Under the pieces are notes generated by a model. That model was not told where the DNA came from. It did no database searches and worked only from the letters and a program-made list of their open reading frames with translations. A stretch of DNA of 49,600 nt, from positions 1 through 49,600 of the forward strand of contig JAICZH010000007.1 in the NCBI GenBank assembly GCA_025933775.1, in the 5' to 3' direction. A program made the position numbers and the translations under genes. This DNA is from Chitinophagaceae bacterium (GTDB lineage Bacteria > Bacteroidota > Bacteroidia > Chitinophagales > Chitinophagaceae). This document shows, piece by piece, positions 39,220 to 40,089 of the stretch (the first letter of the stretch is position 1; every line of letters starts with the position of its first letter).

Positions 39220-39280
39220 TTATTTTTTTTATTTCAATATATTTAATGGCAAATAAACGGGGGTTTACTATTCTCACACC

Positions 39281-39296
39281 TTGGTAAGTTTACCAA
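39281..39296. promoter_or_regulatory. 16-bp perfect palindrome upstream of the predicted RNA gene
   Basis: TTGGTAAGTTTACCAA (arms TTGGTAA/TTACCAA around GT) lies about 80 bp before the predicted transcription start at 39375. It has operator-like symmetry. Confidence 0.4.
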
Positions 39297-39318
39297 TCCT
39301 TCCGTAATTTCATAATGC

Positions 39319-39354
39319 CTGAAATTGGGCAGTACTGCTCTTTGCAGGTTTCAG
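39319..39354. promoter_or_regulatory. Nested inverted repeats overlapping the -33 box
   Basis: CTGAAA (39319-39324) and TTTCAG (39349-39354) enclose the palindrome GGGCAGTACTGCTC (39327-39340), which ends exactly where the promoter TTTG begins (39341). It could be an operator, or a hairpin ending the upstream transcript, though no T-tract follows. Confidence 0.4.
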
Positions 39355-39370
39355 CGGCCCTTTATCTTTG
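39341..39370 (+). promoter_or_regulatory. Strong Bacteroidota promoter before the predicted RNA gene
   Basis: TTTG (39341-39344), an 18-bp spacer and TATCTTTG (39363-39370) match both consensus elements at normal spacing. The expected start is 4-7 nt further on, at about 39374-39377, where no open reading frame begins. Confidence 0.7.
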
Positions 39371-39374
39371 TACC

Positions 39375-39492
39375 AGAAGTTGATTGATGTTCAAACAAAC
39401 ATTAATCAAAATATCCAAATCCATTGAAAAAAAGCCATTCCTTAAATCCAGGAAAAACCAAAAATCCGATATCAGTCAACTTCTATTTTTTT
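39375..39492 (+). ncRNA. Predicted novel small RNA, about 118 nt
   Basis: The predicted transcript starts at a 14-nt arm, AGAAGTTGATTGAT (39375-39388), fully complementary (one G-U) to ATCAGTCAACTTCT (39471-39484), which is followed by ATTTTTTTA. The 5' and 3' ends would therefore form a closing stem with a terminator-like U-tract. The 82-nt interior is A-rich and holds one small hairpin (TTCCT/AGGAA at 39438-39454) and several ATCC words. No reading frame fits. It is not RNase P, tmRNA or SRP RNA by their core motifs; a divergent 6S RNA cannot be excluded. Transcription may also continue to the terminator at 39601. Confidence 0.55.
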
Positions 39493-39600
39493 ATCCAATA
39501 CCTGTAACAACCAAATATCCAAAAGAAAACTAACCGCAAGGTCGTTTATCCAAAGTATCCTTTTAAAAACAGTTCCCCTGGAATTAAGAAATTATTCCAT

Positions 39601-39632
39601 AAAAGCCTGCAAGTGTATTGCGGGCTTTTTTA
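39601..39632 (+). terminator. Intrinsic terminator of the RNA locus
   Basis: AAAAGCCTGCAA (39601-39612) pairs over 12 bp, with one G-U, with TTGCGGGCTTTT (39618-39629) around loop GTGTA, and the T-run continues to 39631. It could end a longer 258-nt form of the 39375 transcript. The 39493-39600 stretch holds no gene. Confidence 0.8.
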
Positions 39633-39810
39633 ATTTATTGGCTAAGTTTTTTTCAGGAATAATTATTTAATAAAAAAAAATGACGTAAGGCGTTTCCCAA
39701 ATATTTTTAACTTTCTTAAATAAAAAATTGTTGATAATTTAAATCCGAATGTTGATAATTTTTATAGCCATGCATGGTTTTTGATTGACACTTGCATGTA
39801 AATTTAGAGA

Positions 39811-40089
39811 ATGGAAGAGGAATACCTTACGCTTCAAACAATTTTTGATATTGTAAAAAATGATGCCCATCCACAAACCTACTTATGTAGCGCTCGGGAA
39901 ATAATTTTACACCAGTTAAACGGATGGGATGTAATTCAAAAACATTTGCAACTATTGGCTGAGAAAGAATTTATTGTTATAAAACAACTCGATAAAATTG
40001 CCATCTCAATAACTCAAAGCGGCATTGACCGGGTGAAATCCGCTTCCTCTTCGCATGGCTTATTAAATGCTAAGTTTAATGAAGTGTAG
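39811..40089 (+). CDS. Small protein with winged-helix-like pattern
   Basis: The 92-residue product matches no family I can name. Its pattern, helices (LQTIFDIVKNDAHPQTYLCS), then LQLLAEKEFIVIKQLDKIAI and SITQSGIDRVKSA, resembles the end of a winged-helix domain, where a helix is followed by a two-strand wing with hydrophobic I-x-I-T-x-x-G. It could be a small DNA-binding protein, but this is weak evidence. It follows the RNA locus on the same strand and has no recognisable promoter. Confidence 0.6.
   Translation: MEEEYLTLQTIFDIVKNDAHPQTYLCSAREIILHQLNGWDVIQKHLQLLAEKEFIVIKQLDKIAISITQSGIDRVKSASSSHGLLNAKFNEV

Follow-up and report, generated by a model that had tools for sequence, protein, structure and literature searches.

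We report here that a locus at positions 39281-39632 of the window, that is, the whole stretch of 49,600 nucleotides analysed from contig JAICZH010000007.1 of Chitinophagaceae bacterium, belongs to a multicopy family of RNAs in the Chitinophagaceae. The initial annotation had proposed an undescribed non-coding RNA gene with a promoter, a closing stem and a terminator, and this proposal is borne out by many copies, a conserved promoter, a paired stem with some compensatory changes and the lack of an Rfam family; these three elements are conserved in relatives and are thus not chance. What it had taken for a single locus is instead one family member, and six copies were found in the genome of origin. 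Our tentative reading is that these RNAs are multicopy, independently transcribed, trans-acting non-coding RNAs of the Chitinophagaceae, the repeated motifs of which would titrate an RNA-binding protein.

DNA similar to 39281-39632 was detected by blast in 18 of 20 genomes of the same genus, with up to 11 matches per genome. A profile search of the window and of 60 stretches fetched around blast matches, which did not include every weak match, gave 81 copies in 18 genus genomes, among them 78 distinct sequences. A seventh blast match in the genome of origin was the second piece of one of its six copies. Copies are often tandem; G019:C27, for instance, has three at a spacing of about 410 bp. 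A covariance model built from 47 genus sequences (R1) matched 67/195 Chitinophagaceae genomes in 36/101 genera, and a second model (R2), built from 70 other-genus copies taken from the better R1 matches, matched 147/394 Chitinophagaceae genomes in 39/101 genera; 129 of these 147 genomes had at least two R2 matches by count of the matches listed. In samples of the order, the class and the phylum, 9/149, 2/198 and 7/395 genomes matched, respectively, and all of them were Chitinophagaceae. Most genera of the family were without a match in the model searches, which used stricter filters at the cost of weak matches, so that copy numbers are lower bounds. Two copies on opposite strands of one chromosome (L148 and L149, both G023:C1) have an identical core sequence and are a recent duplication.

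A recurrent genomic position, termed here the home locus, has the order PALP, RNA, Peripla_BP_2. Judged by a PALP enzyme gene on the upstream side, a Peripla_BP_2 gene on the downstream side, or both, 58/151 copies (16 genus, 42 other) are located there, 34 of the 58 adjoining both genes. These home-locus genes are all on the strand of the RNA, and a Peripla_BP_2 gene lies downstream on the same strand at 40/151 copies. The home locus occurs in many genera and at times holds a tandem of two or three copies. The copy in the window lies elsewhere, flanked by a DUF892 gene and a gene for a 92-aa protein without a Pfam match (39811-40089, downstream of the RNA gene). Neighbours of non-home genus copies are unlike one another: the commonest Pfam family accounted for 4 of 84 proteins scanned out of 91 listed. 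Single loci had suggested a stress-gene neighbourhood, which was not borne out by this Pfam tally.

All elements of the window copy described below are on the forward strand. Direct reading confirmed the annotated promoter at 39341-39370, which is of the Bacteroidota type and consists of TTTG (-33; 39341-39344), 18 bp and TATCTTTG (-7; 39363-39370). A loose -7 pattern, T[AG]nnTT[TC][GA], is present in 77/77 genus copies and 64/70 other-genus copies, a conservation that is not independent since the -7 box was part of both search models; the promoter count excludes four genus copies in which no arm was recognised. TTG at the -33 distance was found in 68/77 genus and 52/70 other copies against a background of 0.108, and the two boxes usually stand at one spacing (109/120). 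Independent of the search models are the -33 box in the other genera only and, in both sets, the region further upstream.

This upstream region (39281-39340) is conserved in a fixed register, namely TTTACgA, 8 nt, GTAAATaCcGaA, 5 nt, AAAAT and GaGCAATTnTGCTCTTG, across non-redundant sets of 47 genus and 53 other-genus copies, and we refer to it as the control region. Its elements in the window are TTTACCA (39289-39295), GTAATTTCATAA (39304-39315), GAAATT (39321-39326) and GGGCAGTACTGCTC (39327-39340). The two upstream palindromes noted earlier, TTGGTAA-GT-TTACCAA (39281-39296) and GCAGTACTGC (39329-39338), are present where they had been placed and form part of it. With up to three mismatches, the genus control-region pattern gave 43 matches in 12/20 genomes, and the reversed pattern gave none in the same 20 genomes. 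Forty-two of the matches are at known copies, which corresponds to 42 of the 81 copies; the control region of the window copy is divergent and lies outside the 43 matches. The remaining match, L227 (G013:C24, minus strand), has the same control region and promoter in front of a stem-less RNA, in which a 5' hairpin CGGTA..TACCG replaces the closing stem and is followed by ATCC/GAAAACC motifs and a terminator. More stem-less members probably exist. The other-genus form of the control region gave 53 matches in 41/388 family genomes and none when reversed, and at all 30 of the 30 loci opened among the 53 the GTTGA 5' arm of the RNA follows. Searched alone, the control region thus marks members of this RNA family. 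The simplest reading is that the whole family would depend on a single transcription factor or on a single dedicated type of promoter. The sequence TTATCCACA, which we take to be DnaA-box-like, occurred with at most one mismatch in 9/61 other-genus spacers between the -33 and -7 boxes (for example in L157, L166, L180, L203 and L206), compared with a mean of 0.41 and a maximum of 3 in 200 rounds of shuffling, and in 0/70 genus spacers.

The closing stem, initially given as 14 bp, is real and folds as 17 bp, pairing 39375-39391, near the predicted transcription start, with 39468-39484. Its folding energy of -22.3 kcal/mol compares with a mean of -9.57 for shuffled sequences (z -5.5; 0/200 as good), and the sequence extended to the second terminator likewise outperforms shuffles in folding (z -4.6; 0/200). 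In an alignment of 47 of 49 genus representatives (87% identity), from which L040:6037-6164 and L035:1761-1888 were omitted as the most divergent, 98.9% of 751 stem cells are paired (0/500 shuffles). Compensatory changes, which the initial annotation had proposed to look for in related genomes, occur: three pairs have both partners substituted, in 4 cells across these 47 copies. Arms mutated without compensation, which would have spoken against the RNA, are confined to a few copies; 8/751 cells are unpaired, and L049 at 6304, L033 and L040 at 6014 are degenerate on the 3' side. Most support for the stem within the genus is sequence conservation rather than covariation, because the arms are nearly invariant (5' arm identical in 62/78 and 3' arm in 50/78 genus copies). 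In the 70 other-genus copies, aligned by fitting to the model, 92.0% of 1093 stem cells pair and six pairs are changed on both sides in 16 cells (0/500); the innermost pair is mostly unpaired there.

The 5' arm has an alternative partner in the nearby AACATTAATCAA. In the window, 39380-39391 can pair with 39398-39409 to form a local hairpin (39380-39409; -11.1 kcal/mol in a fold of the first 60 nt). This pairing is kept in 93.5% of 556 cells (2/500 shuffles), and the number of additional pair types does not exceed that of shuffles (144/500). The competing stem reaches at least 7 bp in 72/75 genus copies and in 57/70 other-genus copies, where shuffles come close (mean shuffle probability 0.22), so that the hairpin is not significant copy by copy in other genera, and where the best competing stem is at most 5 bp in at least nine of the 70 copies. 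In copy L077, by eye, all three strands are changed and both pairings are kept. Since both structures use the 5' arm, the local hairpin excludes the closing stem, and it would be the earlier of the two to form as the RNA is transcribed.

Next to the 3' arm is a T-run (ATTTTTTTA, 39485-39493), which may be a linker or a minor first end. It is followed by a 3' half (39493-39600) with more AUCC and GAAAACT/ACC motifs, and by the intrinsic terminator hairpin at 39601-39632, which is present as annotated and is the likely main 3' end. Of two transcript ends proposed earlier, a main one giving about 118 nt and one giving about 258 nt, we retain the latter as probably the main form in the window, because the second terminator is present in most non-home genus copies and the motifs continue past the T-run; about 118 nt is possible as a minor form. 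A T-run of at least four is found beside the 3' arm in 68/72 scored genus copies, and a terminator-like site lies 115-165 nt further on in 53/72, against 12 for an equally wide control window. These sites are found in 49/57 scored non-home and 4/15 scored home-locus genus copies, and the intervening stretch carries the same motifs. In other genera the motif-rich stretch extends to about 300-550 nt. A CCTCCTGC/GCAGGAGG hairpin was detected in 17/70 other-genus copies with a search pattern that itself fixed most of the letters; by eye, its outer stem is of two sequence types, TCACCG:CGGTGA or ACCGnCTGC:GCAGCGGT. This 3' domain was seen at the home locus of L153, L159, L166, L167, L172, L179, L205 and others, and near the Peripla_BP_2 gene in many loci.

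The statement that the locus has no usable reading frame held in outcome but not in detail. A frame of 49 codons with a TTG start (48 from ATG) is open at 39384-39533, and among genus copies it is not kept: from the same ATG the frame is closed within 7 codons in 48 of 69 motif-bearing copies, and a further nine copies lack the motif. When the longest ATG frame of the transcript region is taken from each of 147 copies, the median is 11 aa, 14 copies reach at least 40 aa and the maximum is 74. A small protein product was rejected on these grounds. By these sequence comparisons the locus is non-coding, because the frame of the window closes early in relatives and not because no frame is open.

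At the sequence level, the constant parts of the family are the control region, the promoter and the predicted unpaired AUCC/GAAAACC motifs. In genus copies the first 100 nt have a TCC density of 4-5.6 per 100 nt versus about 1.1-2.4 downstream, and at most 2.5 past the first 150 nt; in other genera it is about 4-5 per 100 nt out to 300 nt. Among 6-mers, ATCCAA is present in 69 of the 70 far copies (expected 23.0) and TCCAAT in 68 (expected 16.6). The specific words ATCCAATATCC, ACCGTCC and GAAAACC are conserved. In the window, the A/C-rich interior (39410-39467) holds AUCC and GAAAA motifs, and 8 of the 11 NUCC sites of the RNA have a predicted unpaired probability above 0.7. GGA is scarce: over the first 250 nt its density per 100 nt is 0.11-1.44 in genus copies and 0.21-0.69 in those of other genera, which does not exceed that of the flanks except in two genus bins.

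The initial annotation had pointed to a covariance search against Rfam, in particular for 6S RNA, and this search left the window without a match to any 6S model or other sRNA family: at the gathering score, Rfam 15 identified two tRNAs only. It gave no family for ten loci of other genera, and none for the L172 home RNA at E up to 1. A permissive scan of 39220-39810 yielded 18 matches to E 10, the best being MicC on the minus strand (E 0.043). None came near its gathering score, and every one overlapped the terminator or the sequence beyond it. A 6S RNA was rejected, since no model matched at the gathering score in the window or to E 10 in 39220-39810 and the architecture differs; the 6S-Flavo model (RF01685) found nothing across the genome of origin, in a search that was also without a match in all 14 control genomes. 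What remains of the earlier likeness to 6S RNA (RF00013, RF01685) is the closing stem, which encloses a large interior by joining the 5' and 3' portions, whereas the family described here has a largely unstructured interior, is multicopy and has a home locus. As a kind, on sequence evidence, the RNAs belong with multicopy sRNAs, given several independent units per genome with predicted promoters and terminators. Among the matches listed from open-licence papers there was no description of the family, and a word search found Chitinophag- absent from the main text of two ncRNA discovery papers. To our knowledge, the combination of a repeated-motif build, an exchangeable 5' stem and a long shared control region is not known from elsewhere.

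Based on the repeated motifs, the exchangeable 5' module, the co-regulated copies and the lack of common neighbours, we favour a trans-acting RNA with many sites. The window transcript would run from about 39375 to about 39632, with a 5' domain closed by the 16-17 bp stem and AUCC/GUCC and GAAAACC motifs in A/C-rich, G-poor, mostly unpaired sequence. One transcription factor would act on all copies through the control region, and the 5' stem would stabilise the RNA; a 5' arm that forms the local hairpin first and then switches to the closing stem could time folding. The repeated unpaired motifs may be many binding sites for one RNA-binding protein, which would be titrated as the level of the RNA goes up or down; motif repetition is what suggests this step, and the drop in TCC density of genus copies past the first 150 nt counts against it. 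CsrB/CsrC and RsmX/Y/Z likewise carry many copies of a short motif per RNA and occur as several paralogs per genome, and CsrB-type RNAs titrate CsrA, a mode resembling the one proposed here with another motif and another partner. By contrast, in the present family GGA is scarce and UCC common, the motifs are mostly unpaired and not in hairpin loops, and CsrA (PF02599) had no match in the genome of origin in a search that was positive in 3/14 control genomes. Nothing thus supports a CsrB/Rsm titrating RNA as such, neither a match to the cognate protein nor repeated GGA motifs having been found. Hfq also had no match in this genome, and control genomes were positive. RRM-domain proteins are candidate partners, and the genome of origin has two RRM_1 genes. 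At L032 6433-7016 (G000:C156), an 80-aa RRM_1 gene starts about 60 nt after the terminator of the copy, and in related loci in G001 and G003 the RRM gene is farther from the RNA. An RRM gene is not a constant neighbour, being found at only three related loci in 1.245 Mb, and its proximity there is at most a weak hint at a partner. A wider proposal is a so far undescribed Csr-like global system, in which a transcription factor reading a long control region confined to these genes would switch on a battery of modular RNAs made of repeated AUCC/GAAAACC sites, and these would titrate a protein in bacteria without CsrA or Hfq. It is plausible but less likely than not; its exchangeable 5' stem module is suggested by the stem-less L227.

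Ranked closely behind titration on the sequence evidence is a multicopy base-pairing sRNA, for which unpaired UCC motifs would be natural seeds to pair with G-rich mRNA sites, the number of copies setting dosage; we consider it a serious, if somewhat less probable, explanation. LhrC of Listeria monocytogenes has UCC-type unpaired sites. It resembles the family in its several, partly tandem copies with such sites, and the family differs by the absence of a sequence or Rfam match, a different phylum, a larger RNA and a closing stem. LhrC is described as a multicopy sRNA that pairs with mRNAs (PMC4132741). The FopS/GibS RNAs of Bacteroides thetaiotaomicron are multicopy paralogous sRNAs with sigma-ABfr-type promoters in an organism group without Hfq, and FopS, which bind the RRM protein RbpB, are repressors of susC mRNAs (PMC11697453). 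Phylum, multicopy nature, promoter type and the absence of Hfq are shared, and known sRNAs of this kind, LhrC (PMC4132741) and FopS (PMC11697453), lend the base-pairing explanation weight. FopS/GibS belong to another bacterial family and are described with another 5' seed, whereas the present RNAs combine a closing stem with repeated AUCC/GAAAACC motifs and share a long control region. Against pairing, it is a short motif in variable repeat number that is conserved and not one seed. Two generic and weak tests point the same way: an exact complement of AUCCAA-N-AUCC was found at 0/727 predicted starts in the fetched loci, and GGAT/GGA showed no upstream peak, a peak in the first ten bases including the G of ATG.

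The location of 58/151 copies at one conserved locus speaks against a purely trans-acting role, since a cis role is possible there. Home-locus copies have the same kind of gene downstream, with Peripla_BP_2 on the same strand at the 40 copies mentioned, and a later terminator-like site in only 4/15 scored genus copies. Of the two pairing partners of the 5' arm only the distal one gives a terminator-like stem, so that stem, T-run and competing hairpin could form a leader or attenuator that switches the downstream gene. We consider this unlikely for the family: the second terminator precedes the next gene in the window copy and in most non-home genus copies, where no consistent downstream gene was found, copies are tandem, and the competing stem weakens in other genera as described above. 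Rho prefers C-rich, G-poor unpaired RNA, and the interior, with C over G about two to one and abundant YC dinucleotides, could offer a rut-like site or a Rho decoy; conservation of ATCCAATATCC, ACCGTCC and GAAAACC beyond the needs of composition and the presence of intrinsic terminators make this improbable. Least probable is a selfish MITE- or REP-like repeat without an RNA function. Multiple, sometimes tandem copies and the identical cores of L148 and L149 would fit such an element, but copies that have diverged from one another elsewhere still retain promoter, control region and stem, the home locus is conserved in many genera, and a pattern scan and blastn gave no match in the phage, plasmid and viral collections searched.

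In conclusion, titration of an RNA-binding protein by a co-regulated set of RNAs is the reading we place first. The Chitinophagaceae are large, soil- and plant-associated degraders. Few RNA regulators are known from Bacteroidota, and the genome of origin is without an Hfq or CsrA match. A widespread multicopy RNA family with its own conserved control region would open an entry to post-transcriptional regulation in the Chitinophagaceae, and this region may be expected to point to the transcription factor.
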